This document shows positions 29,188 to 48,727 of a DNA stretch of 52,219 nucleotides, one piece after another (position 1 is the first letter of the stretch; every line of letters starts with the position of its first letter). The notes below the pieces were generated by a model. It made no database searches. It was given only the letters and a program-made list of their open reading frames with translations, and was not told where the DNA came from. A program made the position numbers and the translations under genes. Source of the stretch: a virus; IMG/VR virus record IMGVR_UViG_3300048997_000467, positions 1 to 52,219 of that record; one strand, written 5' to 3'.

Positions 29188-29239
29188 GGGGGTTACCTGC
29201 TCCACAGCAAGACGCTTCGGTGACACCGCGCGCCATCGC

Positions 29240-32181: not shown

Positions 32182-33249
32182 ATGCGTAAAAACTCCATCG
32201 GTGTCATCATGGCCGGCGCCTCCGCCCTCGCCGCTTCCAACATCACCGGCTTCTCCGTCCCCGAAGATCACGGCACACATCCTCGGCGCCGCAAAGAGTA
32301 CGGCCGCGTCATCCACAGCGGCGGCCAAATGCGCCGCGCTCCCGGCCAAGGCCACAGCCCGGCCGAGCGCGAAGCCCGCCGCCGCGCGCAGAATGCCGAG
32401 TACCGCGATCGCAAAGCCTGGCGCGCCTGGCTCGCCACCCTCACCGCCGAAGAGCTCGCCTTTGCCCGCAAGCACAAGCTCACCCGCCCCATCGCCGAAG
32501 ATCGCCCCGCCTTCGGCTCCGCCCAAAGCGAAGACGCGCTCGATCACGCCGAAGCCGAGCCCATCCCCGAAGCCCTCATCCTCGGCCACCGCCAGGGCCA
32601 CGGCACCGCCCGCCCCATCGTCTCCGAAAAAAGCCCCATCCTCGATGAGCTGGAACCCCAAACCCTCTCCGTCGATCTCGAAAACCTCAGCGCCCACCAG
32701 ATCCGCCAGGCCTCCGAAACCTTCGAGCAAGCCCTCCGCTGGGCCCTCGCCCCAGCCACCCCCTCCAAATCGGCGGCAGCCACCGATTTGAGCAACCCTC
32801 CACCCGCCGCGCATCCCCTCGTCGCCCTCGGCGAGCGCAGCGCCACCCTCATCGTCACCATGCGGCTGGATCTCGCCGGCTCCCTGCAGCTCGAGCCCGC
32901 CCTCGCCAAATCCCTCCTCCAAAGCTTCGGCCTCGGCTGCCTGCGCGAGACCGTCCAGCGCCTCCAGGCCACCGGCGCCATCTACGCCCGCCTCCTGGAA
33001 TGGATGCGCCGCACCAGCACGCTCGATGGCCTCGGCGAACGCCTCCAGCTCGTCGCCTACCAGCTCCGGCCCGATCTCATCGATGCCGCCACCCTCGCCC
33101 AGCTCGGCGAAGCCACCGGCAAAACCCGCCAGGCCCTCAATAAACCCGCCAACTGCCTGCGCGATACCTTCGATGGCCTCAAAGCCCTCATCATGCGGGC
33201 CGATGTCACCCGCCTCCTCTGCCGCCAAGCCCAGCTCAGCGCCGCCTGA
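32182..33249 (+). CDS. Hypothetical regulator-like protein, 355 aa, with palindrome insertion
   Basis: I use ATG 32182 (MRKNSIGVIMAGASALAASNITG); a TTG at 32152 is possible. The N-terminus has a hydrophobic stretch, then a basic helical region (EREARRRAQNAEYRDRKAWRAWLATL). The C-terminal ~60 residues (LIDAATLAQLGEATGKTRQALNKPANCLRDTFDG) contain a helix-turn-helix. Residues ~196-203 KSAAATDL are encoded by a 23-base palindromic repeat (32767-32789), also found at 33679 and 41020. This is cargo between terminase and the head genes; function unknown. Confidence 0.55.
   Translation: MRKNSIGVIMAGASALAASNITGFSVPEDHGTHPRRRKEYGRVIHSGGQMRRAPGQGHSPAEREARRRAQNAEYRDRKAWRAWLATLTAEELAFARKHKLTRPIAEDRPAFGSAQSEDALDHAEAEPIPEALILGHRQGHGTARPIVSEKSPILDELEPQTLSVDLENLSAHQIRQASETFEQALRWALAPATPSKSAAATDLSNPPPAAHPLVALGERSATLIVTMRLDLAGSLQLEPALAKSLLQSFGLGCLRETVQRLQATGAIYARLLEWMRRTSTLDGLGERLQLVAYQLRPDLIDAATLAQLGEATGKTRQALNKPANCLRDTFDGLKALIMRADVTRLLCRQAQLSAA
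32767..32789. repeat. 23-bp palindromic element, copy 1 (in frame)
   Basis: Begins AAATCGG and ends CCGATTT around a GGCAGCC-type centre. Here it encodes KSAAATDL within the 355-aa protein. An identical copy lies at 33679-33701 and a one-base variant at 41020-41042. Confidence 0.85.
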
Positions 33250-33412: not shown

Positions 33413-33966
33413 GCGACCTCACCCCCGCCCTCCCCACCCGCGAGCAGCTCCTCAGCGAAGCGCTCACCCACTGGCAGCTCAAAGTCGCCGCCGAAGAAGC
33501 CCTCCTCCAGAGCCGCGAAATCCTCCTCATCGAATCCTTCCACCTCGGCGGCAAACTCTGCGCCCTGAAGGAAGACATCGGCCACGGCGGGTGGCTCCAC
33601 TGGCTCGGCAGCCATCTGCCCGGCATCAAACCCCGCGTCGTCACCAACTGCATGGCCCTCTTTCGGGCCAACGATCCCAAATCGGCGGCAGCCACCGATT
33701 TGACGGCCGAGAGCATCCGCCAATTCCTCTGGTACTACATCCCCGCCAAAGAACGCCCCCAGCTCGAAGGCAATAAAAAGATCGGCCCCGCCTTCACCCC
33801 CCTCACCTTCGTGAACAACTTCACCGCCTGGGATCGCCGCGTGCAAATCGGCCTCGCCACCGTGCCCGATCAAGAAACGCTCCAGCGCGAGCTCGCCCCC
33901 GTCGTCAAGCGCATGGGCGCCCTCCTCGGCCGCGATTTCATCCTCGAGCAAATCACCGCCGCATGA
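33409..33966 (+). CDS. DUF3102-like protein, 185 aa, with palindrome insertion
   Basis: The start MSDLTPALPTREQLLSEALTHWQLKVAAEE is at 33409. The segment HLGGKLCALKEDIGHGGWLHWLGSHLPGIKPRVVTNCMALFRAN follows the plan of DUF3102 phage/plasmid proteins (a G.W..WL core after a helical start). KSAAATDL at ~91-98 comes from an in-frame 23-bp palindrome (33679-33701). The C-terminus WDRRVQIGLATVPDQETLQRELAPVV is helical. Its stop overlaps the next ATG. Confidence 0.55.
   Translation: MSDLTPALPTREQLLSEALTHWQLKVAAEEALLQSREILLIESFHLGGKLCALKEDIGHGGWLHWLGSHLPGIKPRVVTNCMALFRANDPKSAAATDLTAESIRQFLWYYIPAKERPQLEGNKKIGPAFTPLTFVNNFTAWDRRVQIGLATVPDQETLQRELAPVVKRMGALLGRDFILEQITAA
33679..33701. repeat. 23-bp palindromic element, copy 2 (in frame)
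   Basis: Identical to copy 1 and read in the same frame, again giving KSAAATDL, inside an unrelated protein. Confidence 0.85.
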
Positions 33967-35237: not shown

Positions 35238-37448
35238 ATGAAAATCGTTCGCGCCGTCGCTCCGGATTCCCGCGTCTTCCGCCCCATCGGCGGCGGCCGC
35301 GTCCACATCACCGGGCAAGCTCAGGCCGTCAAAGCCCTCGCCACGCAGATCGTCCCCAGCGCCCCGCCGGCCATCAAGAGCACCAGCGCCTACTCCGCGA
35401 GCCTCGTCTCCCGGCTCACCGAAGACTGGCCCATCGCCATCCTCAGCGCCGATGCCGCCACCCGCTGGAGCCTCCGCCAGCTCCGCGCCCGCGCCCGCGA
35501 TCTGGAGCGGAACGGCGGCATCCACAATGCGTACCTGGATTGCCTGGAAGTCGATATCATCGGCTCCAAAGGCATCGGCGTTCATTTGAAGATTCAGGAT
35601 GAAGGCGGCGATCGCGTCATCCCGCCGGCCGAGCACGCCTTTTACAAGGCGCTGAACGAAGGCGTGGCCACTTACCGCGGCCTCGCCGCCAAGCGCCGCC
35701 TCGCCTTCCGCCAGGAAGCCCACCACTGCGCCATGAAGGCCGCCGTGGTCCGCACCGCTCACCAGCTCGCGCCCGAGGAGACGGCCATCCCCGGCGGCGG
35801 GCTGGATCGCTACGCCTGCTACCTCGTGGAAAGCGAATTCAAGGAATTCGGCAAGCAAGGCCATTGCGACGTCACCGGCAAACACTCCCTGCAGGATCTC
35901 TGCCGGCTCGCCCTGCGCACCGCCGCGCGCGATGGCGATGCCGTCATCCTCGCCTATCTCGGCTACCCAAATCGCTGGGGCGTAGCCTTCCAGCTCATCG
36001 AAGGCGATTACGTGGATGACTACTACAACGTGGAGCGCCTGCCCAATGGCCACCGCATCCAGATGGGCGTGGAGCTCAATGCCTTCGGCCGCAAAGTCGC
36101 CCTCTGGGTCTTCGCCCGCCACCCCGGCGATTACGGCACCGATGGCGTCACGCAGACGGGCACGCGCCGGCGCATCCCCATCCTCGGCGAGCCGCCCGAT
36201 CCCTACTACAGCCCGGATGGGCCCGAGGCCGTGCAGGCCATCCACCTCACCCGCTCCAAACGCGCCGAGGAGACGCGCGCCGTCCCGTGGATCACGCCCG
36301 CCCTGCAGCTCATCCACCATATCGAGAGCTACAAGGAAGCCGAGATCACCGCCGCCCGCGAGGAAGCCTGCAAACACGTCTTTTACGAGCGCGATATGTT
36401 CGCCAGCGATGGCACCGCCCTGGAGTGGGAAGAGCGCGATGGCAAGCTCACCGATGAAATGCAGCCCGGCGGCGCCACCGCGCTCCCGCCCGGCTACAAG
36501 GTGAACTTCGTCGATCCGAAGCACCCTAATCAGCACTTCCCCGACTTTCTTAAATCGATGAAGCGGGAAGTCGCGATGGCGGTGAACTACTGCTACAACA
36601 TCCTCTTCGGCGACCTGGAGAGCGTGAACTTTTCCAGCATACGCGCCGGCCTGCAAAACCAGCGCGAAGGCTCCAAGATGGGCCAGGCGTGGTTTGGCTC
36701 CAATGCCTTCACCCCCATCTTCGAGACGTTCCTGAAGATGGCGCTCCTCACCGGTGCGCTCCCCTTCCGCACCACCGATTTCCCGCGCCTGAACCGGCTC
36801 GAGCTGAAGTTCCGCCGCTGGCCGTGGGTGGATCCCAAGAGCGATGCCGAGACGGCCCAGCTCCTCATCCAGATGAAGCTCACCACGCGCGGCCGCGTGA
36901 TCGCCGATATGTCCAGCGACGACTTCGAGGACATCATCGACGAGCTCGACGATGAAGCGGCCTACATCGCCACCAAAAAGAACCTCCCGCCCGAGCTCCT
37001 CCCCCCGCAGCCGAATGGCGCTCCGGGCCAGCCTGCGCCCGCTCCCGAGAAGACGCCCGCCGCCGCCAAGAAGCCCGCCATCAAATCCGCCTTTCTCGGC
37101 GAAACGCCCTTTGCCGAGCTGCCCGAGCACGCGCAGCGCACCATCGCCGAATTCGTCCCCTCGCCCGCGCCCGAGGCCAAAGTCATCCGCTACCAGATGA
37201 CGGTGCCCGAGCTGCTCGCCAAGGCCGATCCGCACAATCTCCAGACCGCCCGCCGGCGCGTGGCCAAGCGCACCATCGCCTCCTCCGCCGCCGAAGTGCT
37301 GGAGCGCAAAGACAAGGCCATCCTGCTCCTCAACGACAAGCTCATCGACGGCCATCATCACCTGGCCAAAGCGGAGAAAGGCAAGATCACCAGCTCCCTC
37401 CCGGTGCTCGATCTCACCCCCCTGCGTTACCAGCCAGCCGCCTCCTAG
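35238..37448 (+). CDS. Portal protein, lambda family, with ParB-like C-terminal extension
   Basis: A 736-aa protein. Residues ~40-560 match lambda-type portals: RARARDLERNGGIHNAYLDCLEVDIIGSKGI near the start, and LFGDLESVNFSSIRAGLQNQREG near ~455-478. It forms the packaging ring at one capsid vertex. After a Pro/Ala linker (~590-615) an additional ~120 residues (RYQMTVPELLAKADPHNLQTARRRVAKRTI...LLNDKLIDGHHHLAKAEKGKITSSLPVLDLTPLRYQ) have the LND..IDGHH..A pattern of ParB-type domains. This fusion is unusual. The satellite has no portal, so it must borrow this one. Confidence 0.85.
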   Translation: MKIVRAVAPDSRVFRPIGGGRVHITGQAQAVKALATQIVPSAPPAIKSTSAYSASLVSRLTEDWPIAILSADAATRWSLRQLRARARDLERNGGIHNAYLDCLEVDIIGSKGIGVHLKIQDEGGDRVIPPAEHAFYKALNEGVATYRGLAAKRRLAFRQEAHHCAMKAAVVRTAHQLAPEETAIPGGGLDRYACYLVESEFKEFGKQGHCDVTGKHSLQDLCRLALRTAARDGDAVILAYLGYPNRWGVAFQLIEGDYVDDYYNVERLPNGHRIQMGVELNAFGRKVALWVFARHPGDYGTDGVTQTGTRRRIPILGEPPDPYYSPDGPEAVQAIHLTRSKRAEETRAVPWITPALQLIHHIESYKEAEITAAREEACKHVFYERDMFASDGTALEWEERDGKLTDEMQPGGATALPPGYKVNFVDPKHPNQHFPDFLKSMKREVAMAVNYCYNILFGDLESVNFSSIRAGLQNQREGSKMGQAWFGSNAFTPIFETFLKMALLTGALPFRTTDFPRLNRLELKFRRWPWVDPKSDAETAQLLIQMKLTTRGRVIADMSSDDFEDIIDELDDEAAYIATKKNLPPELLPPQPNGAPGQPAPAPEKTPAAAKKPAIKSAFLGETPFAELPEHAQRTIAEFVPSPAPEAKVIRYQMTVPELLAKADPHNLQTARRRVAKRTIASSAAEVLERKDKAILLLNDKLIDGHHHLAKAEKGKITSSLPVLDLTPLRYQPAAS

Positions 37449-37465: not shown

Positions 37466-38822
37466 CGCCCGGGCCAGCGCTATGGCCCTCGAACTTTCCC
37501 CCGTCCAATCCACCCTCACCTTCGAGGGGCCCGAGGCCATCAAGAGCATCGCCACGCAGGATGGCCACGTGACCGTGGGCGCCTACGCCATCCGCTTCTC
37601 CGGCCCCGGCGATCCGGATACCTCGGGCGAATACTTCACTCCGCGCACCAACTTCGGCCCGAAGAATGGCGATGGCGTGGCCACCCTCTTCCACCACGGC
37701 CTGCCCATCAAAGGCCTGGAGCGCCTGCAGGAGATCGAATTCGGCCCCGCCACCACCCGGCGCGATGAGACGGGCATCTTCGCCGAAACCACGCTCGATC
37801 TCTCCGATCCCGATCAAGCCCGCCTCGCCCACTGGTGCGCCAAGGGCGCGCTGAAATGGTCCAGCGGCAGCGCCTCCCACCTCGTGCGCAAAGGCGCGGA
37901 TGGCTGCGAAATCACCCGCTGGCACCCCATCGAATTCTCCTTCACGCCGGCGCCGGTGGATGAGCGCCTCCCCGCCATTCGCCCGCTGAAGTCCCTCCCC
38001 GAAATCGCCGCGCCCATCGCCGCCGCGCTCGCCGAGGCCTTTGCCGCGCCCGCCCCCACGCCCGCCGCGCCGCCCGTTGACACGCCGAAAGAGGCCACGC
38101 CCACCGCGCCCACCAAGTCCGCACCCACCCCTTCAATCACCGTCATGGAAAAGACCCCCGAACAGCTCGAAGCCGAACAGAACGCCCGCACCGAAACCGC
38201 CGTGAAGGCGCGCGAGCTGGCCATCGAGGAAATCACCGCCCTGGGTGAGCAATACCACTGCATGGATGCGGCTCGCAGCTTCATCCGCGATCGCAAGTCC
38301 GCCGGCGACTTCCAGAAACACATCCTCACCGATGTGCTGAAGGCCAAGCCGGTCAAATTCAATGCCGGCCTCATCGGCATGGATCAAAAGGAGCTTGGCC
38401 GCTATTCCTTCCTGAAGGCGGTGCGCGAATTCAGCGACGGCTTCAAGCTCACCGGCCTCGAAAAAGAGGTCCATGATGCGGCGGTCAAAGCCACCGGCCG
38501 CAAGCTGGATGGGCGCACCTTCGTGGTGGCGCAGGACATCTTCCAGAGCGCCCTCAAAGCGCAGAACGTCACCACGGCGACCGCCGGCGGCTTCATGGTG
38601 CAGAACGATTACCTGCCGCCCATCGAGCTGCTCCGCAACCGCACCGCCGTCATGAAAGCCGGCGCCACCATGCTCGGCGGCCTCGTGGGCGACGTCATCA
38701 TCCCCGTGCAGACGGGCGCTTCCGTCTCCTACTGGGTGGCGGAGACGGGCGCGCTCACCGATAGCGAGCTCACCTTCGGCCAGAAGAAGCTCACCCCGCA
38801 CCGGCTCGGCGTCACCATCCCC

Positions 38823-38835
38823 TATTCCACTCAGT
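38823..38835 (+). other. Left attachment core (attL) of the satellite
   Basis: tattccactcagt. It matches 48885-48897 (tattccacgcagt) in 12 of 13 bases. Both copies are in the same codon phase of the capsid gene and encode YSTQ. The mismatch is at a synonymous third position (ACT/ACG, Thr), so either exchange point restores the protein. Confidence 0.8.
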
Positions 38836-38860
38836 GGCGTAAGGAGAGGAGCCCAGAGCG

Positions 38861-38878
38861 TTGCCACACCGTTGGCAA
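38861..38878. promoter_or_regulatory. Left-end arm-type inverted repeat
   Basis: TTGCCA-cacccgt-like spacer-TGGCAA, about 26 bp inside the left core. The same hexamers recur in reversed order at the right end (48737-48751: TGGCAA-ccg-TTGCCA). Likely integrase or excisionase arm sites. Confidence 0.55.
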
Positions 38879-38885
38879 AATGGGA

Positions 38886-38914
38886 GGGGCCGCGCGAAAA
38901 GCGCGGCCCCTTAA
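38886..38914 (-). terminator. Hairpin terminator of the leftward satellite gene
   Basis: GGGGCCGCGC / GCGCGGCCCC form a perfect 10-bp stem with a five-base loop, directly after the TAA of the minus-strand gene at 38911. The downstream T run is weak (tcccattttg). Confidence 0.65.
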
Positions 38915-39111
38915 CCCTTGCGGAGCTTCCGCAGGGAGTGGGCGAGGGTAACGACCGCAACGGCTAGAGTCACCAGCCGCACGGCCAGCGTGAGCACCGC
39001 ATCGGCGGCATTCAGCGAGGCCAGGACATCGGCCCCCAACAGGCCAAGGACTGAGGCCACGCCGGCCCCTATGGGGTGGCGATCAAAGAGCGGGGAGAAT
39101 GGCAGGAACAT
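38911..39111 (-). CDS. Satellite membrane protein, 66 aa
   Basis: ATG 39111 lies 21 nt after a TTGACAC box on the minus strand, which fixes the start. MFLPFSPLFDRHPIGAGVASVLGLLGADV is followed by a second hydrophobic segment (VLTLAVRLVTLAVAVVTLAHSL) and a basic end (RKLRKG). Two membrane helices and ~66 aa resemble small holin-type or superinfection-type proteins. It is the only gene between the left end and the cos-like site and ends in a hairpin terminator, so it is its own unit. Confidence 0.55.
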   Translation of the reverse strand: MFLPFSPLFDRHPIGAGVASVLGLLGADVLASLNAADAVLTLAVRLVTLAVAVVTLAHSLRKLRKG

Positions 39112-39125
39112 CGGCCCGCCCGAAC

Positions 39126-39132
39126 GTGTCAA
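39126..39132 (-). promoter_or_regulatory. TTGACAC box on the minus strand, 21 nt before ATG 39111
   Basis: ccTTTGACACgttcggg on the minus strand. It shows that the box follows the start codon's orientation and not the general late direction. Confidence 0.55.
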
Positions 39133-39168
39133 AGGAGGGTGCCCGGTCCCCTCCGCACCCTCCCACCC

Positions 39169-39245
39169 CCCCGCCCCCTCGCGGGTCCTTCCGGGCGGAA
39201 ACGGGGCCAGCGGGTACCGAACCCCCCGTTTTACGTTAGATACAG
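39169..39245 (+). other. Probable cos site of the satellite
   Basis: CGCGGGTCCTTCCGGGCGG at 39181 matches lambda cosQ (CGGGTCCTTTCCGG) even better than the helper copy. The block 39183-39245 aligns without gaps to 29125-29187, sharing GGGTCCTTCC, GGT(A/T)CCGAACCCCC, TTTT and TAGAT.CAG. The small terminase start is 181 bp downstream of GGGTCC, close to the lambda layout. Between them, 39260-39345 has no similarity to the helper and holds CGATTT words at 39271 and 39306 that may be satellite-specific cosB sites. Confidence 0.65.
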
Positions 39246-39363
39246 CCCCCGCCCGTTCTCCTCACCAGCACGATTTCAAATCGCGAAACACAGCATTAAC
39301 ACAGGCGATTTCTGAACGCGATCCGCTTTCCACCTAGGGAGAAATTGACACCCTCGCGCCCGG
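39246..39363 (+). promoter_or_regulatory. Satellite-specific leader, candidate cosB
   Basis: AT-richer than its surroundings. CGATTTC at 39271 and 39306 and a GATTTcAAATC dyad at 39272-39282 are candidate binding sites for the satellite small terminase, whose HTH differs from the helper's. TTGACAC at 39345-39351 ends it. Confidence 0.4.
39345..39351 (+). promoter_or_regulatory. TTGACAC box, 19 nt before satellite terS ATG 39364
   Basis: aaaTTGACACcctcgcg. The helper terS has the variant GTGACAC at 20 nt. Confidence 0.55.
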
Positions 39364-39765
39364 ATGCTCGTTTCCATCGCCAAACTCGCTTCTATCACAG
39401 GGAAGGACCGAAAGACGATCATCCCCCGAATCGCCCACCTCCCCAGCAAGGCCGGCGAAAAGGGAGCGAAACTCTACGAGAGCCCGGCTGCATTGGCCGC
39501 GATCTACACGCGCGACAGCGCCAGCGGAAACCTCGACGAAGCGCGCCGCCGCCAAGCCGACAGCGCGGCGCACCTGAACGAACTACGGGGGGAGGAGATT
39601 TCAAAGACGCGCATCCCCATCGACATTCCCATCCGCGAAAACGACCAAATCACGCAAAGCATCGCCGCAACGCTGAAGGCCGCCCGCGGCAAGACGCTTT
39701 CCCTCGAACTCATCAACGAGCTTTTGGGGAAGTTTCGCGACCTCCCCGCCAAGCTCAAATGGTAA
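39364..39765 (+). CDS. Satellite terminase small subunit
   Basis: A 133-aa protein, the same length as the helper TerS. HTH: VSIAKLASITGKDRKTIIPRIAHLP. The middle (residues ~50-80) is divergent from the helper, but RIPIDIPIRENDQITQSIAATLKAARGK and FRDLPAKLKW match closely, and the last ~32 bases of DNA differ at about one position. In Nu1 the C-terminal part binds the large subunit and the N-terminal part binds cosB. A conserved docking end with a changed DNA-binding part is what a satellite needs to direct the helper's TerL to its own DNA. Confidence 0.85.
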   Translation: MLVSIAKLASITGKDRKTIIPRIAHLPSKAGEKGAKLYESPAALAAIYTRDSASGNLDEARRRQADSAAHLNELRGEEISKTRIPIDIPIRENDQITQSIAATLKAARGKTLSLELINELLGKFRDLPAKLKW

Positions 39766-39790
39766 CCGGCGGGCGTGGTTTCCCGGCCCG

Positions 39791-39797
39791 TTGACAC
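39791..39797 (+). promoter_or_regulatory. TTGACAC box, 41 nt before ATG 39832
   Basis: cgTTGACACggcggcg. The spacing is longer than usual; no start codon in frame lies closer. Confidence 0.4.
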
Positions 39798-39831
39798 GGC
39801 GGCGCGGAAGCGCACCAAAACCGCCCTTCCC

Positions 39832-40011
39832 ATGCCCCGTAAAACCGTTGTCGAACCCCTCACGAATCCCCCGGCCTACACCTACCGGGCACGCGTGGTT
39901 TCCCCGGTGACGATCTACGGCGAGGCCCGCGAAGTCGGCAGTATCTTGGAGGTGGACAAAGACACCTTCGACAACCTGGAGAAGAAGGGCCGCTTGGAAC
40001 CCGTTGCCTAA
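39832..40011 (+). CDS. Small satellite head protein, 59 aa, paralog of 49944-50132
   Basis: YTYRARVVSPVTIYGEAREVGSILEVDKDTFDNLEKKGRLEPV aligns with the helper protein MLAKVIAKTTIDNLPVAIGDVVEVDEITFRNLAAKGRLEEA: the same beta-type stretch followed by the closing K.GRLE motif. In the helper it stands after the capsid gene; here it stands before it. Probably a small head or completion protein. It lies 32 bp before the capsid start. Confidence 0.65.
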   Translation: MPRKTVVEPLTNPPAYTYRARVVSPVTIYGEAREVGSILEVDKDTFDNLEKKGRLEPVA

Positions 40012-40043
40012 TTCCTTTCACGCCTGAAATCCGCCCCCCTCCC

Positions 40044-41021
40044 ATGCCCACCGCTCCCTATTCTCTCGCCAATGCCTTCAAAGGCATCCTCGAAGGCAAC
40101 CTCACCGGCTTCGAGTTGGAAACCCATCAAGAGTTGGTGAAGCTCATGCCGAGCAAGCCCGCCGGCTTCCTCATCCCCCTGCGTGCCACGCTCAAGGCTC
40201 AGAACGTCACCAGCGCCCCGGCTGGCGGGTTTACCGTAGGAAGCGCCGTGCCCATGGCCGCGGATGCTCTGCGGCCCGCCTCGCTCGCCATGCGGCTCGG
40301 CGCGGAAATGATCTCCCTGCGTCCCAATGCCATCGTTCCGAGCATTGACGTAGGCGCGCAAGGCTACTGGCTCGCCGAGGGTGAGCTTTGCCCGGAGAGC
40401 ACCGCCAGCCTGAAGGCGCTCAAACTCACCCCCAAGCGGTGCGCCGCATGGATGAAGGTTACCAACCAACTTCTGGCCCAAGCGCCGATTGCCGAATCCA
40501 TGCTCACCCGCGATCTGCGCGGAGCCATCGGCCAGGCTCTCGACCTCGGCATTTTTTCCGGCGTGGGCGGCCACGAGCCTACCGGGCTGCTCAACAGCGG
40601 CGCGGTGCAATCCTACACTTTCGGCGGCGCTCCCACCCGCGCCAAACTCGCCGCGATGGAACGGAAGCTCGGCGACGAAAACGCCGACGATTCCAGCGCC
40701 CAATGGGTCACCAGCCCTGCGGTGCGCGAGAAATGGCGCAACACGGTGAACAACGACACCGCCGGCAGCGGCTTCCTGTGGGACGATGACAACCGCGCTA
40801 TCGGCAAGCCCGCATGGGCGACCAATAGCGTTCCAGGCGATTTCGTCATCCTGGGGGACTTCTCCGACCTGCTCATTGTGAATTGGGGCGTCATCGAAAT
40901 TTCGGACCCCTTCGGCGCGAAGAGGACCGCTCAAACCGAGCTGCTCATCGAAATCCACGCCGACGCCGGCCCCGTGCGCGGCAAAAGCTTCACCGTCTCC
41001 ACCGACACCGCCAACCAGTAA
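40044..41021 (+). CDS. Satellite major capsid protein (HK97 fold, no protease)
   Basis: A 325-aa protein. The capsid domain aligns with the helper's: TLKAQNVTSAPAGGFTV against ALKAQNVTTATAGGFMV, YWLAEGELCPESTASLKALKLTPKR against YWVAETGALTDSELTFGQKKLTPHR, then the ending FTVSTDTANQ against FNVSTDSAAQ. It has a short N-arm of ~50 residues and no prohead protease or long scaffold, so it would need the helper protease or go without. At the place matching the attachment core it reads VTNQLLAQ with unrelated codons, which would protect it from its own integrase. It could form a smaller or satellite-specific capsid. Confidence 0.85.
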   Translation: MPTAPYSLANAFKGILEGNLTGFELETHQELVKLMPSKPAGFLIPLRATLKAQNVTSAPAGGFTVGSAVPMAADALRPASLAMRLGAEMISLRPNAIVPSIDVGAQGYWLAEGELCPESTASLKALKLTPKRCAAWMKVTNQLLAQAPIAESMLTRDLRGAIGQALDLGIFSGVGGHEPTGLLNSGAVQSYTFGGAPTRAKLAAMERKLGDENADDSSAQWVTSPAVREKWRNTVNNDTAGSGFLWDDDNRAIGKPAWATNSVPGDFVILGDFSDLLIVNWGVIEISDPFGAKRTAQTELLIEIHADAGPVRGKSFTVSTDTANQ

Positions 41022-41042
41022 ATCGGCGGCTGCCACCGATTT
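41020..41042. repeat. 23-bp palindromic element, copy 3 (satellite)
   Basis: Begins AAATCGG and ends CCGATTT, one base different from the two helper copies. It starts on the last bases of the capsid stop codon and lies in the gap before 41065. Confidence 0.8.
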
Positions 41043-41064
41043 CAAAACCACCCCACTCCCCACC

Positions 41065-41691
41065 ATGAAGCCCGGAACCTTTGTCCGCCCCGTCGCCCCC
41101 GAAAACCGGGAGGCTTTTGAAGACCAGCGCGCCGCCGCCAACGCCCGCGTGCAACACGAATTGCTCCGCCTGCGAGCGGGAGAACGGCCCGTGCCCCCGT
41201 GGGAAAATCAAGACGCCTACGCCTACGACAAAACGATCGCCGAGACTCACCTGAAATACGTGCAGGCTTGGCGGCCCGATCCGAAGCGCCGCGTTCTCAC
41301 CCACTGGAAGAAGCTGATGATTCAGCAGCGGGGCGGCATCGTTTCGATTTCCTACGAGGCAGACGGAAAGCTCTCGGATGCCAGTCTCTTTGCGGCGGAA
41401 AAAGGACCGTTCAAAATCCGCTGGCTGCACGGGTCCAAGGCCGGGCAAGTGGAAGACGTTCCGCCCGAATCTTACCTTGCCTTCAGAAAAGGCCCTGGGC
41501 AGACCACCGTTGCCGAGCCCGTCCCCGATGACGAGCCCCTTTGCCCGCCGGCGCAGCCCGCGAACATGCCGAGCTGCTTTCTCAAGGCGCAACGCCTGGT
41601 GGCGAAGAAGCTCAAAAAGGCCCCGGAAGACATCACCTACGCCGAGGCCCTCGATTTTTTCCACAAGCGGCTCGCCGCTGAAACTTTTTAA
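41065..41691 (+). CDS. Satellite-specific protein, 208 aa
   Basis: ATG 41065 start. An N-terminal helical region (NREAFEDQRAAANARVQHELLRLRAGE) is followed by a small beta-domain (RGGIVSISYEADGKLSDASLFAAEKGPFKIRWLHGSKAGQVEDVPPESY) and a helical end (FLKAQRLVAKKLKKAPEDITYAEALDFFHKRLAAETF). It is placed between capsid and tail genes, where neck genes would be. It has no visible paralog in the helper, so it may adapt the satellite head to the helper's neck. That is inference. Confidence 0.55.
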   Translation: MKPGTFVRPVAPENREAFEDQRAAANARVQHELLRLRAGERPVPPWENQDAYAYDKTIAETHLKYVQAWRPDPKRRVLTHWKKLMIQQRGGIVSISYEADGKLSDASLFAAEKGPFKIRWLHGSKAGQVEDVPPESYLAFRKGPGQTTVAEPVPDDEPLCPPAQPANMPSCFLKAQRLVAKKLKKAPEDITYAEALDFFHKRLAAETF

Positions 41692-41822
41692 CAACTTCGG
41701 GGGATTGTCTGCCCTCGGGGCTTGAATGAGAGGTGGAACAGGGTTCTTGACTGCCCGTTCCGCTGCGGTTGAGGCCGGGGGCTTGGTGGCCCCCGGCCTT
41801 CACGCTTTTTCCAACTTTTTTT
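41692..41822 (+). other. Intergenic region with hairpin before the satellite tail genes
   Basis: ccgctgcggttgaggccggggg...ccccggcc forms a stem near 41770-41797, followed by a T-rich stretch ttttttccaacttttttta. It may be an intrinsic terminator after 41691 that also precedes the start at 41823. Confidence 0.55.
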
Positions 41823-42557
41823 ATGCCCGGAATCACGATCAAACCCGGCTCCAGCAAGCCGTGGATGGCCAACTTCAAGCAATACGCGAAGTGGTACACG
41901 GAAGCGCACCCCGACGCGAACGCCGCCGAGCTGTTCGTGGATCAATGCCGCAAGACCGCCGTGGAGCTTTACCAGCAAACCGTGGCCGTCTCCCCCACGA
42001 AGGCCGAAATTGTGGCCGATGTGAAATCGCGCGGCTGGCACATCCCCGCCTTCTTCGGCAAGGTGGAGCGCGACGATAAAGGCCACATCGAGCACGGCGA
42101 GCGCATCGGGCGCGGCTTGGCCAAATGGTGGGCCGCCGCCGCCGAGAAACGCCGCGACAAGCGCCGCAAAGGCCGCCCCACCACCGCCGCGCAGAAAGCG
42201 CGCGATGAACGCCTCTCCCGCCGCCCCACCCTCGCGCAGATGCAGGCTTACGCCATCGCCGTCCGAAACAAGGCCAGGCTCTTTGTCGCCTCCGGCTGGC
42301 TCGGCGCTTCCTCCGATCTCGGCGGCTCCCTGAGCCTCTCTTCCGGCAATATCGACCACGAGCGCGGCGGAGCGGTCATTTCCCGCCAGCCCGGCAAAAC
42401 CATTGTCACCCTTTGGAACAAAACCCCCGGCGTCGAAAAGCTCAACGCCCGCTCCCACTTCGTCCGCGTAGCCCTCATCGTGCGCGCGGCTGACATGGCG
42501 GTTTACGTGCGCCGCAAGGCCGCCGAAGCCGCGCAACGCTTCCTCCGCAAAAAGTAA
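41823..42557 (+). CDS. Satellite tail protein upstream of its tape measure, 244 aa
   Basis: ATG 41823 (MPGITIKPGSSKPWMANFKQYAKWY). An upstream in-frame start at 41769 lies in the hairpin region and is rejected. It is homologous to the helper 2757-3512 product: KARLFVASGWLGASSDLGG against ARLFLASGWLGAIADLGG; AEIVADVKSRGWHIPAFF against AQIEADVKRQGWKIPAYF; a basic middle (KRRDKRRKGRP) in both. Tail completion or minor tail role, as in the helper. Confidence 0.7.
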   Translation: MPGITIKPGSSKPWMANFKQYAKWYTEAHPDANAAELFVDQCRKTAVELYQQTVAVSPTKAEIVADVKSRGWHIPAFFGKVERDDKGHIEHGERIGRGLAKWWAAAAEKRRDKRRKGRPTTAAQKARDERLSRRPTLAQMQAYAIAVRNKARLFVASGWLGASSDLGGSLSLSSGNIDHERGGAVISRQPGKTIVTLWNKTPGVEKLNARSHFVRVALIVRAADMAVYVRRKAAEAAQRFLRKK

Positions 42558-42568
42558 CCCGCCCCTCT

Positions 42569-44869
42569 ATGGACATTGAAGAAATACGCACGGATGTAAT
42601 CTGGGATACCTCCGGCGTGAAAGCCGGAGCCGACGACATTGAAAAAATCGTCGCCCGGCAACAAAGGATCGAGGCCGCGGCCCTCTCCGCCACCGAGGCC
42701 CGCCAGAAAGCCCACCAAGCCCGCATGGCGGGTCTTCGCTCTGCCCACGACGGGCGCGCCGGCAATTCCCGCATGACGGGCGATCTGCTCAATGCCGCCA
42801 CCGGTAGCAGCGGAAACGTCAACCGCGTGAACATGCTGCAGCACCTGGGCTTTAGCGCCGCCACCGGCGGCGCGGTTGCGGCTGGCATCGGCGCGGCCAC
42901 CGGCATCTTGAACCGCTACCGCGAAGAAGCCAAAGAGCTTCAGCGCACGAGCGATCGCCTGGACGAATCTTTCGCCAGCACGCGCGGCCGCGCGGCTTAC
43001 ATGAACGCCGGATCTGGCCGGGGCAGCTTGAGCGGCAGCATCGAAGATCTCCGCAAGGCCGGGCTCGCCGAGGCCGATCACCAAGGCGGGCTCATCCAGA
43101 CCCGCAAAGATCGAGACTACTTCTTTGGCGCGGGCGGCCCGGGTCCGGCGCGATTGGATGAAGGCTTGCACCACCTCAGCATCCCCGGCCTTCGGAGCTT
43201 AGGTGAATTGAACCTCACCGGCGGCGACAGCATCAACGAGCAGCTCGCAAAATCCCGCCAGCGCGAAGGCACCGCCAACAGCCTTCGCCAAAAGCTGGAA
43301 AACGACCGGAGCGAAGGGATTCGCAAGGATACCGCCTTTTCCCGCGAGCGCACGCGCGGCAGCTCCTTCCAAGCCGAGCGCCTGGAATTGCAGATGTCCG
43401 AAAAGCGCGAAATCGCCGAGGCCGGCGCGGAGCAAATTTCCCGGAAGGACCTCGCCAACATCCGCGCCCGTTTCGATATTGAGCGCCGCGAAATCGACGT
43501 GCGCGAACGCACCAGCAAGCTCGAGCTGAATACGCGCCAGGAAATCGCCGACTTCCGGGGCGGCCCGATGGACCGCGAGCAATTCGCCGCCAATCGGGAA
43601 TTGGACCTCGCCCGGAAAAGCCTGGAACTCGCCAAGAGCCGCACCAAAGAGGAGCAGGCACAGGCCCGCGTGCGCGTGGCCGCCGCCGAGCAGGCCGTCA
43701 CTCTCACGAACTTGGAAGCCGCTGCCCGGCGCGATATGTGGAAGGGCGAAGTGGAGGCCAACAACGTGCGCCAGCAAGGGCTGGGCTTCCGCGCCGGGCT
43801 GGCGAAAGACCGTTTCGGCCCCGAGGAAAACAAAAAATTCGCCGCCGGGCAGGCCGTGCAACGCCGGGAGGCCGAAGACAACCTGGTAGTCGCGCAAGGC
43901 GCGCTCGATCGTGTCAATAACAAGGCCACCCGCGAGTTTAGCAAAAACGGCGCAGTCACCCCCGAGACGAAGCACGAACAGACCCTTTTCATGCAGGCGC
44001 GGGACGCCGCGCAGACGGAGAAGCAGGAAAAGGAAACCCAGCTCGCCGAAGAGGAGAAAGCCCGCAATATCCAAATCGAACGAGCCAGGAACGCGGGCGG
44101 AAATGAAACCGCCGCCATGCGCCTCGACAACAAAGGCCGGGGGGACCTCGCCGAGCGCCGCCGCGATGAAGACCAAACCAAGGCGCAGGCCGAAGAGCTC
44201 CGCCGCCAAGGCCGCCCCGAGCTCGCCGCCGAGCTGGAGAAACAGCACGCGCTGCGCGAGCAATCCCGGCACGATCAAATTTTCCTTCTCCCGAATGGCC
44301 GCCGGCGGCCCCGAGCGGACATCATGCACGATCTGCGCTCACGCCGCCGCACCGAGCGGCGCTTTGACGCCGCCCACGCACGCGCCGCCGGCTCCGGCGA
44401 TCCTCGCGGCGCCGGCCTTCACAGCGGCGATCCGACCAGCCGGCACAACGGCAACGGCTTGGACATTCCGCCCGGAAACGTCGGGCAAGACCCGAAAGGG
44501 CCAGGATTGCACCCTCAGCACCTTACCGGCACCGGGCCTAGGGCCGTGCAATCCAATGTTTTCAAAAGGCCGTGGTACAACCCCACCGGCCGCGACGAAG
44601 ATCAAGACTTCAACCTCTGGGACGATCTCCAGAAAAAGCGCGATCTCCGATGGGGAAAGGAAAAGGGGAGTGGCGTCTCCAGCTCCTCCAGCTTGTATCA
44701 GCGTCCCGACCCCGATCAGATTGCCTCTCGAAAGACTTCTGATAGCGGAAAGGGCGGCCCGGCAGAGCAGCTCAAAGTTTTGCAAGAGATGAAGAACGAG
44801 CTGAAGGCCGTTATCATGGAGCAAACGAAGGTTCTTCGCGGTGGGCTTCCCAACGGAACTACGCCGTGA
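42569..44869 (+). CDS. Satellite tail tape measure protein
   Basis: A 766-aa protein, 48 residues longer than the helper's. N-terminal WDTSGVKAGADDIEKI, then GDLLNAATGSSGNVNRVNMLQHLG, the hydrophobic patch TGGAVAAGIGAATGI at ~95-110, and long coiled coils up to ~590. The helper has the same order. DQIASRK recurs near both C-termini. A Gly/His-rich stretch near 605-650 is unique. Since tape measure length sets tail length, this protein could produce tails about 7 nm longer, or give chaperone and tip specificity. Confidence 0.8.
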   Translation: MDIEEIRTDVIWDTSGVKAGADDIEKIVARQQRIEAAALSATEARQKAHQARMAGLRSAHDGRAGNSRMTGDLLNAATGSSGNVNRVNMLQHLGFSAATGGAVAAGIGAATGILNRYREEAKELQRTSDRLDESFASTRGRAAYMNAGSGRGSLSGSIEDLRKAGLAEADHQGGLIQTRKDRDYFFGAGGPGPARLDEGLHHLSIPGLRSLGELNLTGGDSINEQLAKSRQREGTANSLRQKLENDRSEGIRKDTAFSRERTRGSSFQAERLELQMSEKREIAEAGAEQISRKDLANIRARFDIERREIDVRERTSKLELNTRQEIADFRGGPMDREQFAANRELDLARKSLELAKSRTKEEQAQARVRVAAAEQAVTLTNLEAAARRDMWKGEVEANNVRQQGLGFRAGLAKDRFGPEENKKFAAGQAVQRREAEDNLVVAQGALDRVNNKATREFSKNGAVTPETKHEQTLFMQARDAAQTEKQEKETQLAEEEKARNIQIERARNAGGNETAAMRLDNKGRGDLAERRRDEDQTKAQAEELRRQGRPELAAELEKQHALREQSRHDQIFLLPNGRRRPRADIMHDLRSRRRTERRFDAAHARAAGSGDPRGAGLHSGDPTSRHNGNGLDIPPGNVGQDPKGPGLHPQHLTGTGPRAVQSNVFKRPWYNPTGRDEDQDFNLWDDLQKKRDLRWGKEKGSGVSSSSSLYQRPDPDQIASRKTSDSGKGGPAEQLKVLQEMKNELKAVIMEQTKVLRGGLPNGTTP

Positions 44870-45126
44870 AACTAGAGCAGCTCCTTTCAGGATTGGGGGA
44901 CGGCCCGATTTGGGTCACGGGCGCATGGCTCAAGCAACTTGTGGCCGCCATCATCGAAGACCGCGCGCGGCTCGTGGAAGGGACCGGCGACGAAATACCC
45001 ACCCCCTGGGGCCGTTTCTTGAACGTGCGCGGCAGCGGGAAAACCGCCACCTTCAACGCCTACTTCGCCGTTTCCGGCCAAATCAAATTGGTGGAGCTTA
45101 CCGGGCGCGTCATAGAGGACTCGTGA
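44866..45126 (+). CDS. Satellite small tail protein, 86 aa
   Basis: It starts with GTG or ATG-like overlap at 44866 right at the tape measure stop (ccGTGAAACTAG). Same length and clear similarity to the helper 6403-6663 product (EDRARLVEGTGDEIPTPWGRFLNVRGSGKTATFNAYFAVSGQIKLVEL). The helper's intervening 226-aa gene is absent here. Confidence 0.7.
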   Translation: MKLEQLLSGLGDGPIWVTGAWLKQLVAAIIEDRARLVEGTGDEIPTPWGRFLNVRGSGKTATFNAYFAVSGQIKLVELTGRVIEDS

Positions 45127-45152
45127 GCGAAGACCACACCGCCGGGCCGCGC

Positions 45153-45638
45153 TCAAAACCCCTTTAGCTCGTCCCTGCGCGGCTTATCGCGCTCGTCCTG
45201 CAAAGCCTTGTCTATCGCGAAAAAGCTTTCATCGGCCTTTGGAAATCCGCGCCGGTAGATTTCCAACGCCCCAAGTTGCGTCATGTGGTAGGCGCCCAAG
45301 TCTTCCAGCACCCAAGTTCTCCCTTGGCGATCAATTGAGGAGAGCTTCCACACTCGCCCCCCGGCGTTCGCCGCCATCAGGGCATCTACTTCCACCGGCG
45401 TAAGCGGGGAGACGCTCGTGTGAGAGTAATTTTCCCGGTGGCACTTCCCCTGCCACATATACGCCTCAACGCTGATTCCGGCGCTTTCGTACGACCTTTT
45501 TTCAAACTCCGCCGCCGGGAACGAACCTGAGAAGGTGCGAACCGGCTTGCCGTAGCGGGCATCCAGCTCCGCCGCCGTCTCGCCGATCCGCGCGAGCGCC
45601 AGGCCCGGCACCGCGAGCAAGAGGCAAAGCAGTTTCAC
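45153..45638 (-). CDS. Satellite secreted protein, ARIGE...RYG family
   Basis: A 161-aa protein with a signal peptide (MKLLCLLLAVPGLALA) and mature start RIGETAAELDARYGKPVRTFSG. Later parts include CHRENYSHTSVSPLTPVEVDALMAANAGGRVWKL. It is of the same plan as the helper protein at 26331-26810 (signal peptide, RIGE, RYG, then a ...LMxAN stretch at a similar place: MMKANSDGQAWTI). It is transcribed against the satellite tail genes, with its own upstream region, so it is probably expressed in the integrated state. Cell-envelope exclusion is a plausible role. Confidence 0.65.
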   Translation of the reverse strand: MKLLCLLLAVPGLALARIGETAAELDARYGKPVRTFSGSFPAAEFEKRSYESAGISVEAYMWQGKCHRENYSHTSVSPLTPVEVDALMAANAGGRVWKLSSIDRQGRTWVLEDLGAYHMTQLGALEIYRRGFPKADESFFAIDKALQDERDKPRRDELKGF

Positions 45639-45852
45639 GGGCGCAAATTTCAGGCTCGCCGCCGCTCCCCGGCAAGCGTAATTTCGCCCCGCACTGGACT
45701 AACGGTGCAACGCAATTCTCATCCTTTCGGCGTAATGAACCGAGGGGGCGAAAAAATGAAAACAGAGAAACAAGTCCGTCCCCTGGATAGCGCCATGGTC
45801 ATTCTTGGCGCGACAAGGTTAGTCCCTTCCGGGGGGCGGACTTTTTGTTTCC
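45639..45852. promoter_or_regulatory. Satellite divergent control region
   Basis: About 210 bases between divergent genes. A stem agtcc...ggact followed by TTTTT at 45821-45847 looks like an intrinsic terminator or attenuator for the rightward transcript. An open frame from ATG 45756 crosses it and overlaps the next gene, and I do not trust it. The upstream part (45690-45760) is AT-rich enough to hold promoters both ways. Confidence 0.5.
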
Positions 45853-45945
45853 ATGAGAAGTCAGAACCCGCCGCGCCTCGCGCGGCTTTCCGTGGCGGCG
45901 CGGGCCGTCACCCCCGAAATCATCGTCGGAAAGGGGGCGTGCTAA
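45853..45945 (+). CDS. Candidate 30-aa protein before the satellite regulator gene
   Basis: ATG 45853 opens MRSQNPPRLARLSVAARAVT and ends TGCTAA one base before ATG 45947. High third-position GC and tight spacing suggest a translated leader coupled to the next gene. It lies right after the terminator-like stem, so it could report attenuation. Confidence 0.3.
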   Translation: MRSQNPPRLARLSVAARAVTPEIIVGKGAC

Positions 45946-45946
45946 A

Positions 45947-46801
45947 ATGCGCCTCCCAGATGATCACATCGCCTTTGAAGGGCGCGTCATCCCCGCCGAA
46001 AAGGTAGAGGAAACCGGCGACGAAAACCAAACCACCGCGCTCTACCGCGACAAGGCGGGGAAGTGGTACGCGGTCTTTCACAATTCCAAGCGGTCTTGGG
46101 AGCAGGCGCTCCGCATGTATTTCGAGGAAACGGGGGAAAGGAGCGTCCCCTTTCCCAACCGCGCCGCGCAAGACAGGATCGACGAACTCTCGGAAATCTC
46201 CATTCGCACCGTGCGCCTTTCCGAGCGCGGAGCCCTCGCATGGTATCACCGGGAATTTGTGAATGACGGCCCGCTCAATAAGCTCATGCGGGAGGCCATC
46301 GCCGCTTTCGTTCCCAAAGCGGAACGGCAAGGCAAGGTGCAGCTCACGGCATGGGTAAAGCGCGCCGTGGCCGCGCAATTCCAACGGTGCGCCCACGCCG
46401 CCGGCATCACCGAACAGGAGCTACTCGCCAGCTTCATCGAAGACGGGCTGCAACGCGCCCGCACGCCCCGCAAAGGCTCGCCGATCCCGACCGCGCGCAA
46501 GGCCACCCGTGAGGAGCTAAAGGAGCTGGCGCGGGCTTACCGTGCGGGCGAACCGCTCTCTGACGAGCAATGGAGCTGGATCGCCGAACTCATCGGCAAT
46601 CCGCCCGCCGCCCGCGCGAAGAGCACCGCCCCGGCCGGTGCCCACGTGCAACTCGAATTGGCAACCTCGCTCGTGGCCGTGGTCGCCCGTTTCGAGTCCA
46701 CCCTCGCCGCCGATACGTTGGCCGAAGCGCAGCGGACCGTCTCCCGGCTCCATCAATCGCTCCACGCCGAAGAAACCTTTCGGCGCGCCGCCCACGCCTA
46801 G
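45947..46801 (+). CDS. Satellite-specific protein, 284 aa, possible regulator
   Basis: It starts at ATG 45947. The N-terminal ~50 residues are beta-rich (AFEGRVIPAEKVEETGDENQTTALYRDKAGKWYAVFH). The middle is helical with a possible HTH/RHH-like segment (KVQLTAWVKRAVAAQFQRCAHAAGITEQELLASFIEDGL). The C-terminus is a helical coil (HVQLELATSLVAVVARFESTLAADTLAEAQRTVSRLHQSL). It has no counterpart in the helper. Its position next to the excisionase gene suggests a role in induction or repression of the satellite. Confidence 0.55.
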   Translation: MRLPDDHIAFEGRVIPAEKVEETGDENQTTALYRDKAGKWYAVFHNSKRSWEQALRMYFEETGERSVPFPNRAAQDRIDELSEISIRTVRLSERGALAWYHREFVNDGPLNKLMREAIAAFVPKAERQGKVQLTAWVKRAVAAQFQRCAHAAGITEQELLASFIEDGLQRARTPRKGSPIPTARKATREELKELARAYRAGEPLSDEQWSWIAELIGNPPAARAKSTAPAGAHVQLELATSLVAVVARFESTLAADTLAEAQRTVSRLHQSLHAEETFRRAAHA

Positions 46802-46875
46802 CCCCAACCCGCCCGGCGGGAGCCAAACCCTCCCGCCGGGCACTTCCTCTTTCCCACATGAATCTATCCCATTCG

Positions 46876-46882
46876 TTGACAC
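46876..46882 (+). promoter_or_regulatory. TTGACAC box, 19 nt before ATG 46895
   Basis: tcgTTGACACgcctttcgg. It supports ATG 46895 over the internal ATG at 46922 as the start of the excisionase-like gene. Confidence 0.5.
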
Positions 46883-46894
46883 GCCTTTCGGTGC

Positions 46895-47089
46895 ATGGCC
46901 GCACCAGAACCCCAAAAACTCATGAACATCGAACAACTCGCCGACAGACTTTCCCTGTCCGTCGCGGGCGTTCGAAAGATGATCAAACGCCGGGTCATCC
47001 CCGTTATCAAACTCGGTTACAAGTGCATGCGCTTTCGCTGGGCGGATGTGGATGCAGCCCTGTCCCGAGTCACCGTTCGCGCCGTCTAA
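46895..47089 (+). CDS. Satellite excisionase-like protein
   Basis: A 64-aa protein: MNIEQLADRLSLSVAGVRKMIKRRVIPVIKLGYKCMRFRWADVDAAL is a winged HTH of the excisionase (AlpA/helix_turn_helix_17) type covering nearly the entire protein. It lies 18 bp before the integrase, the classic xis-int pair. Since the helper's capsid gene depends on excision, its control by helper infection or induction is the key regulatory step. Confidence 0.75.
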   Translation: MAAPEPQKLMNIEQLADRLSLSVAGVRKMIKRRVIPVIKLGYKCMRFRWADVDAALSRVTVRAV

Positions 47090-47107
47090 ACTGGGAGGGT
47101 TTTCGCC

Positions 47108-48727
47108 ATGAGTAAGCCAGCCTACGGGGTACGAGATTACAACCATTCGAGCCGTCCAAGCCTTCGGGCCGTAGTGAATTGGAAGGACAGCGAGGGCAAA
47201 AGGCAGCGCAAATTCTTTCCGAGCAAAGGCGAAGCGAAGGAGTGGGCTCGCCAGCGGGAACTAGAGCTGCTCAACGGCGGCAGGGAAGTCCTGAATTTCC
47301 CCTCGTGGCTGCGGGTCATGGCCGAACAGTGCCAAGCGCGCCTTACCCCTCACGGAAAGGATTTGCGGGCCGCCACAGACCATTTTATCGCCGCGTTGGA
47401 GCGCTCCAAGGCCAGCGTGCCCCTTTCCCATGCGATCGCCGAGTTTCTCGCCCGCAAAGCGCAACGGAAGGTACCCCTCTCGAAAACGTATGTCTGGAAG
47501 CTCCGCACCTACTTGCGGCGCTTCCTTGCCGGCCGGGAAGAAAAATTGGTGGAAGCCATCACCCATGAGGAATGCCAAGCCTTCGTCGATTCTCTGCCGT
47601 TCGCTCCGAAGACGGTGAACAATGCTTTGAGCATCCTTTTCGAGTTTTTCGGATGGTGCATGGGCCGGGGCCGGAAATGGACGCCGGATAACCCCATGGA
47701 GGGAATCGAGTACCACAAGATCAAGGAGCAGGCCGCGGGCATCCTTTCGCCCGAAGAGCTGAGGAAGCTTTTGGAGGCCGCGGATGCGGAAATGCTGTGT
47801 TACGTCGCCATCGGCGCGTTTGCCGGGCTGCGCGCCGCAGAGCTGCGACGGCTCGACTGGAAAGAAATCAATCTCGAAGACGGCTTCATCGAAGTCCTTG
47901 CCTCGAAGTCGAAAACGGCCACGCGGCGCGTCATCAAGATTCAACCGGCCCTCCGCACCTGGATTGAGCCTTTTGCCAAACCGAGCGGGCGCGTGTGCCT
48001 CAATAATTCGCCCGCTTTGCTCATCGAGCTTTGGAAGAAGGCCGGCCTCACGGAATGGCCGAACAACGCGCTGCGCCACTCGTTCGCCAGCTATCACTTG
48101 GAAATGTTCAAGGATGCGGCGGCGCTCGCCTTGGAAATGGGGCACACCACCACAAACCTGATCTTCCAATTCTACCGCCAGCTCGTGCGGCAAAGCGTGG
48201 CCTTGCAATACTGGAACGTACTGCCGGGCACCGGCACCGATCTCCCGGCCATGGCTGCCCGCAATAGCCTGCGAAAATGCACCCTCGCCAAAACCAAGGC
48301 CATTCTCGGAAACCCGAAGTTCAAGCCCAACTGGTACCGCCGGCTTTACGGCTACCAGAAGACCACCCGCGAGTATCTCGCGCTGTTTGGGGGGTGCGTG
48401 GCGTCCATTGAAAACTGGATGCGGAGAGGCATGCCGCTTGACGATCCCGAAGCAATGGAACGCCTCCGCCACGGCGAGTACACTTTCAACGTGCGGCAGC
48501 ACCGCGAGATGTACGGTGCCACCTCTCGCGAAGTGAAAACTTGGCGGCGCGCCGGCTGGCCCTTGGACGATCCGGAGCGGGTGAGAAACTACTTGGAATA
48601 CGTTGCGGAGACGAAGCGAATCAGTGGGCTTGTTCCGGCAAAAGCAACCAGCTCGGAAGCAACGGCACGGGTGATTCAGATGCCCGACCAGCGCGCCGCG
48701 CGCTTCCGCTCAAGTCAGGCCGTCTAA
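47108..48727 (+). CDS. int: Satellite tyrosine integrase with tandem HTH-like C-terminal extension
   Basis: A 539-aa protein. GGGAGG before ATG 47108 is a good ribosome site. Catalytic residues: Arg 242 in GAFAGLRAAELRRLDW, Arg 323 in NALRHSFASYHLE, His 346 in MGHTTTN and Tyr 356 in FQFYRQ. After the catalytic domain ~180 residues remain, far beyond normal. They contain two similar units, REYLALFGGCVASIENWMRRGMPLDDPEAM (~418-447) and HREMYGATSREVKTWRRAGWPLDDP (~462-487), that look like helix-turn-helix modules. It should recombine the 13-bp core within the helper capsid gene. Confidence 0.88.
   Translation: MSKPAYGVRDYNHSSRPSLRAVVNWKDSEGKRQRKFFPSKGEAKEWARQRELELLNGGREVLNFPSWLRVMAEQCQARLTPHGKDLRAATDHFIAALERSKASVPLSHAIAEFLARKAQRKVPLSKTYVWKLRTYLRRFLAGREEKLVEAITHEECQAFVDSLPFAPKTVNNALSILFEFFGWCMGRGRKWTPDNPMEGIEYHKIKEQAAGILSPEELRKLLEAADAEMLCYVAIGAFAGLRAAELRRLDWKEINLEDGFIEVLASKSKTATRRVIKIQPALRTWIEPFAKPSGRVCLNNSPALLIELWKKAGLTEWPNNALRHSFASYHLEMFKDAAALALEMGHTTTNLIFQFYRQLVRQSVALQYWNVLPGTGTDLPAMAARNSLRKCTLAKTKAILGNPKFKPNWYRRLYGYQKTTREYLALFGGCVASIENWMRRGMPLDDPEAMERLRHGEYTFNVRQHREMYGATSREVKTWRRAGWPLDDPERVRNYLEYVAETKRISGLVPAKATSSEATARVIQMPDQRAARFRSSQAV

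Follow-up and report, generated by a model that had tools for sequence, protein, structure and literature searches.

How does a capsid protein that has neither the protease nor the scaffold domain of its relatives become a virus shell, when its gene belongs to an element lodged inside the capsid gene of another virus? The question is raised by the window analysed here, a stretch of 52,219 nucleotides that makes up a single circular virus contig, with bases 1-127 duplicated exactly at 52093-52219. It holds the gene set of a helper phage, including a large terminase subunit (TerL) of the GpA type (29635-31656, +; Pfam GpA_ATPase 2e-53), a portal of the lambda family (35238-37448, +; Pfam Phage_portal_2 1e-75) and a tyrosine integrase of its own. 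The inserted element has no copy of the TerL or portal gene. In the explanation that we consider fairly probable, it is a helper-embedded satellite that takes TerL, portal and protease from the helper, and its capsid protein is most likely cut in trans.

The element within the helper capsid gene

The integrated element comprises 10,062 bp (38823-48884, +), counted from the attL core up to just before the attR core. The cores are TATTCCACTCAGT at attL (38823-38835, +) and TATTCCACGCAGT at attR (48885-48897, +). They are identical at 12 of 13 bp, a match reached in none of 40 shuffles of both flanks, and the element ends have TATTCCAC(T/G)CAGT in common. Joined at the core, the flanks form a single uninterrupted capsid ORF of 642 aa, which places the insertion at helper capsid codon 448 and confirms the initial annotation in its claim that the helper makes one protease-scaffold-capsid polyprotein. 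The 5' fragment (37482-38951, +) is still an intact ORF of 489 aa that runs from the protease (about residues 1-192) through the scaffold or delta region, the cut site and the start of the capsid fold to about 38 foreign residues. The protease part thus lies whole upstream of the insertion, as had been stated, and the 3' fragment (48885-49472, +) is in frame with the 5' fragment once the two are joined. Insertion by the satellite integrase at this codon would stop the production of helper shells until excision.

The motif CCGTTGSCAA occurs just twice in the window, beside the element ends, as CCGTTGGCAA on the left (38869-38878, +) and CCGTTGCCAA on the right (48743-48752, +). This placement is as expected of integrase arm sites, and we annotate both as putative arm sites. 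The satellite tyrosine integrase of 539 aa (47108-48727, +; Pfam Phage_integrase 8.7e-12; PHROG 1 3.9e-35) is closest to the helper integrase (27% identity, E 2e-21) and also matches the integrase of a Verrucomicrobiota chromosomal island, L056 (E 2e-15). It has a C-terminal extension of about 170 residues (48200-48727) that is absent from the helper integrase and holds two similar helix-turn-helix-like stretches. A protein of 55 aa encoded at 46922-47089 (+) resembles helix-turn-helix excisionases in sequence and position and has no profile match. The satellite capsid, the integrase and the 3' half of the helper capsid were each searched as single sequences against viral contigs and returned zero relatives; neither a second satellite copy nor an empty helper was found there. 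With a single contig known, the junctions could in principle be an assembly chimera. We rate this as barely conceivable, given the exact att core, the in-frame restoration of the capsid gene, the arm repeats beside both cores, the integrase adjoining attR and the co-orthologous genes described below.

The satellite carries a capsid gene of its own, which encodes VTNQ (GTTACCAACCAAC) at the position matching the core and agrees with it at 6 of 13 bases, as originally described. The accompanying proposal that the gene is masked from its own integrase is right in that the core is absent, but this is unremarkable because every divergent homologue lacks it: 15 other family members match at 4-8 of 13 bases. 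Since these match the core no better and no sign of selection is seen, masking as an adaptation was rejected. For 11capE, an embedded satellite of Escherichia coli, divergence of the att site is said to prevent self-integration, so the same point has already been published (PMC10111431).

Capsid proteins and the maturation protease

The satellite major capsid protein has 325 aa and an HK97 fold, without protease or scaffold domain (40044-41021, +). Its ORF has no in-frame ATG, GTG or TTG farther upstream of 40044, and its coordinates, its length and the lack of a protease are as first annotated. The protein matches Pfam Phage_capsid PF05065 (7.8e-27, 94.8 bits; cutoff 24.2) and TIGR01554 (71.3; cutoff 27.5) and is assigned to PHROG 617. 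Its AF2 model (pLDDT 74) has as top PDB match 8gta (E 6e-17, prob 1.00), the capsid structure of Dinoroseobacter phage vB_DshS-R4C (PMC10276861); the capsid of EcCI2 (9gyi) and encapsulins also occur among the fold matches. It aligns to helper residues 308-642 with 31% identity (E 8e-34) and is shorter than all complete capsid ORFs of the family from the fetched viral loci, which measure 401-861 aa.

The satellite protein had been described as capsid only with a short N-arm. In that form the description is not supported: the protease and scaffold domains are absent, but the N-terminus retains a pro-segment of about 60 residues with a predicted cut site. R4C, a member of the same capsid family, makes a polyprotein of 629 aa, and the virion chain in 8gta comprises 268 residues from G362, after TATA. 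This chain starts at a GG that aligns with satellite G61. The alignment thereby predicts a cut at A60|G61 of the satellite, delimiting a pro-segment of 60 residues (40044-40223, +), and at A368|G369 of the helper (38583-38588, +). The satellite pro-segment has the family-conserved motifs YS..A and LTG.E.E. Identity between the two capsids, measured in a 16-residue window, peaks at satellite residues 50-65 (40191-40238, +), where 13 of 16 residues are identical compared with 30% overall. The conserved block LKAQNVT.A.AGGF spans the predicted cut site, and residues 45-69 are disordered in the AF2 model. Because the R4C cut site aligns at A60|G61, the satellite capsid is not a bare mature shell protein; pro-segment and predicted cut site are kept.

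A sister of this capsid is encoded on L038 (QHOR01000337.1), a 5 kb contig of the Verrucomicrobia MAG AV48. In the capsid tree the satellite groups with L038 (support 97/98) and the helper with L015 (100/99), the nearest helper relative found, which is 64% identical over the capsid 3' half and has an intact capsid gene of 683 aa. Capture of the satellite capsid gene from the present helper is unsupported, since the tree pairs the two proteins separately. The L038 capsid likewise has no scaffold domain and carries the same cut-site block, LKAQNVTTANAGGF, with the aligned site at A75|G76. A separate protease gene directly follows it, and the product is 49% identical to the helper protease. The reduced-capsid lineage thus appears in one case beside a protease of its own and in another, the present one, without any but within a helper that encodes a homologue of that enzyme, and this is our main argument for maturation in trans.

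Who would supply the protease? A protease-profile search of the element ORFs and the helper 5' ORF gave the helper 5' ORF as sole match. The N-terminal region of the helper protein has no match in Pfam or PHROGs (none to PF04586 at E<=1). Its relatives (L064-L078) are mostly the N-terminal parts of ORFs of 700-900 aa with a capsid domain behind; four of those scanned (L064, L065, L067 and L068) match Peptidase_S78 weakly, L065 above the Pfam cutoff. H72, S127-S128-G129 and E151 are invariant. Homology to accepted members together with the conserved His and Ser would make the helper N-terminus a member of Peptidase S78. Among Foldseek matches T4 gp21 and the HCMV protease rank high and are not significant (E > 0.3; model pLDDT 67). 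The helper capsid gene is itself mosaic: its shell part follows L015 at the 64% identity given above, and its protease domain (37482-38144) comes from another lineage, being 19% identical to that of L015 and 45-49% identical to that of L038.

The satellite shell protein would accordingly have shed the fused protease and almost the entire scaffold domain and kept the pro-segment and the cut site, which the helper protease most likely cuts in trans at A60|G61. We take this as the best reading because the cut-site block is the best conserved part and because the L038 protease is 49% identical to that of the helper. The earlier suggestion that an integrated helper could supply protease to satellite capsids is therefore possible, and action in trans is how we would interpret the conserved block and the separate protease gene of L038. 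A kept cut site in a protease-less capsid also offers a sharp test of whether satellite shells depend on the helper protease.

Cleavage is unnecessary for many HK97-fold capsids, and the block might be conserved for assembly instead; both points count against cleavage in trans. So do the absent Pfam and PHROG matches of the helper protease and its non-significant fold matches, and the failure to find another satellite copy or an empty helper weighs against the explanation as a whole. The satellite capsid could then stay unprocessed and assemble without protease and scaffold as encapsulins do, or with a 208-aa protein as scaffold, the block serving assembly. The gene for this protein is unique to the element and lies directly after the capsid gene (41065-41691, +), next to a capsid that has lost its scaffold domain. 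It has no match in Pfam, PHROGs, NCBIfam or phages and could be a scaffold. Encapsulins are, as mentioned, among the fold matches. We nevertheless hold an unprocessed capsid to be rather unlikely, as pro-segment and cut-site block are retained and conserved and the sister system L038 has kept a dedicated protease. A further point against processing by the helper comes from GN-PICIs, a related kind of satellite, in which a capsid gene is dispensable (PMC10111431).

The position of the insertion invites another thought. It spares the protease, the scaffold region and the cut site but takes away the greater part of the shell domain, so the composite could work without excision, the 489-aa remnant acting as a protease-scaffold in the manner of lambda gpC/Nu3, with the shell protein of the satellite standing in for the lost helper domain. 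The circular contig on record comprises the entire composite, and a backup role of the embedded capsid gene has been proposed for HE-PICIs, the helper-embedded satellites of enterobacteria (PMC10111431). Such a shell would, however, need to hold a 52-kb genome, and the foreign residues and partial capsid fold of the remnant may cause it to misfold; we judge a composite of this kind improbable. On a related reading the insertion splits the labour of the polyprotein, the remnant being a working protease-scaffold and the satellite contributing a shell protein that has no scaffold domain and shares the cut site. This is a speculative idea that we doubt. If true, satellite shells could assemble and mature at a time when the making of helper shells is blocked, and excision would not be needed first.

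Packaging and the remaining genes

Satellite and helper each encode a small terminase subunit (TerS). The satellite protein has 133 aa (39364-39765, +; PHROG 141, 1.8e-6) and is 62% identical to that of the helper (29174-29641, +; co-orthologous part from 29240), with conservation greatest in the C-terminal 53 residues (77%). Small terminases contact the large subunit through their C-terminal part, and this pattern would fit a need to engage helper TerL. Just upstream of each TerS gene lies a similar, cos-like stretch, at 39162-39245 (+) in the satellite and 29104-29187 (+) in the helper. The two are 74% identical over 84 nt (E 3e-8) and both contain CGGGTCCTTCC and CCGAACCCCC blocks; their local alignment score of 61 compares with a maximum of 32 over 289 comparisons made with other segments of the window. 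We infer that this DNA is a shared cos site, so that the satellite, with its own packaging site and TerS, would redirect helper TerL. This bears on the idea that the satellite capsid acts chiefly as a poison, joining helper shells and thereby spoiling them or reducing their size. The two capsid proteins are homologous and would be co-produced, but co-assembly is doubtful at 31% identity, and the possession of a separate TerS and cos-like site suggests self-packaging; we consider poisoning very improbable.

The cos-like motifs at 29124 and 39182 are spaced 10,058 bp apart, 4 bp off the element length of 10,062 bp. Cuts at both would divide the composite into pieces of 10,058 and 42,034 bp, very nearly the genome sizes of satellite and helper. 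A rule by which cos spacing equals element length fails in 11capE (15,139 versus 11,077 bp), and the agreement seen here is possibly a coincidence.

No TerL, portal or protease gene was found among the element ORFs scanned, which, together with a presumed dependence on the helper, classes the element as a satellite. Since it lacks these three, it would take them from the helper. Six of its genes are co-orthologues of helper genes, namely those for TerS, capsid, three proteins of 262, 766 and 86 aa, and the integrase, and the late genes among them keep the helper order. This co-orthology of the late set, like the TerS, the cos-like site and the tape-measure-like gene, goes beyond what the initial annotation mentioned. 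The 262-aa protein (41769-42557, +) is 41% identical to the product of helper 2643-3512, just before the helper tape-measure-like gene. The 766-aa protein (42569-44869, +; 38% to helper 3550-5706) is a putative tape-measure protein. Alignment searches of genome contigs, phages and 388 Verrucomicrobiota genomes gave no relatives and there was no profile match, so this label is based on the position and length of the gene and on its co-orthology. The 86-aa protein (44866-45126, +) is 45% identical to the product of helper 6403-6663. Further right follows a putative regulatory protein of 284 aa (45947-46801, +), a relative of which is encoded on the L038 contig. The satellite would thus supply its own tape-measure-like set besides its own shell protein, which probably forms a smaller head. 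By published allometry a T=3 shell corresponds to about 11.8 kb (8.1-17.1 kb; PMC7762592), so that a genome of 10 kb would suit T=3, or a larger shell if several copies were packed. That TerS, capsid, the probable tape measure and their neighbours are doubled suggests that the satellite re-specifies the packed DNA, the shell and perhaps the tail length, and that it would leave TerL, portal and protease to the helper.

Several other features of the window were recorded. A 161-aa protein with a signal-peptide-like start is encoded at 45153-45638 (-) in the element, and the helper encodes a weakly similar protein (26322-26807, +; E 0.002); the gene is possibly cargo in both. The helper also encodes an N6/N4 DNA methyltransferase (17766-18935, -; Pfam 2e-45). 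Short iterated intergenic repeats of CCTAAAT and TGGATTGC types are dispersed across the helper on both strands, one group at 1975-2012, 6768-6805, 14398-14427 and 50854-50891, a second at 18811-18853, 20473-20523 and 51741-51775. A near-palindrome of 23 bp, AAATCGGCGGCWGCCACCGATTT, has two copies within helper genes of the terminase-portal interval (32767-32789 and 33679-33701) and a third that spans the stop codon of the satellite capsid gene (41020-41042). No copies would be expected by chance, and none was found in viral contigs or in 388 Verrucomicrobiota genomes.

Comparison with known systems

Tommasini et al. reported in 2023 (PMC10111431) on satellites that sit within late genes of prophages, usually the capsid gene E. 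They come from enterobacteria and have integrases of one clade, and capsid genes are the commonest late gene among them (PMC10111431). The element that typifies them, 11capE, comes from E. coli NRG857c and was fetched for comparison as locus L063. It measures 11 kb and, like the present element, lies co-oriented in a helper capsid gene, carries a divergent capsid gene of its own, shares a cos region with its helper and has no protease of its own annotated. The differences are considerable. By a pairwise test rather than a clade tree, the present integrase falls outside the HE-PICI clade (22.7% over 181 aa, E 0.002 to 11capE). HE-PICI zones are ordered integration, Bro, replication (primase) and late, with the 11capE integrase at the left end, whereas here the late genes come first, the integrase is last at the right end and no primase was found among the element ORFs scanned. 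The present element has TerS and tape-measure-like genes, in contrast to 11capE, and the capsid families are without detectable similarity. The 11capE helper has its protease as a separate S49 gene, whereas the present helper capsid is a protease fusion.

Similarly, capsid-forming PICIs (cf-PICIs) have an HK97-fold capsid protein of their own and need a helper for at least part of the particle. Their genes include those for a protease, a portal, connectors and the two subunits of the terminase (PMC10690885); the present element has no protease, portal or TerL and does have a tape-measure-like gene. R4C differs in being a phage with a fused protease and not a satellite. Closest in capsid design is L038, which shares the scaffold-less sister capsid, the cut-site block and the relative of the 284-aa protein, and differs in having a separate protease gene and in lying, as far as its 5-kb contig extends, outside any helper gene. 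Three islands in Verrucomicrobiota chromosomes may also represent satellite families, perhaps unreported, as judged from gene content with terminase families covered in part, and their occurrence speaks for the satellite reading of the present element. L056 (4878-12107) has an integrase, a primase, a TerS-like and a capsid gene; L058 (4074-16292) an integrase, a short capsid protein, a tape-measure-like and a tail-tip gene; and L061 (690-7854) an integrase and a capsid gene. Neither TerL nor portal was detected in any of them.

By the features compared, the element would work like an HE-PICI and yet is neither an HE-PICI nor a cf-PICI. Another integrase, another capsid family and an opposite gene order suggest that embedding in a helper capsid gene evolved more than once, and a reduced capsid that probably depends on the helper protease sets this element apart from the known helper-embedded satellites of enterobacteria.
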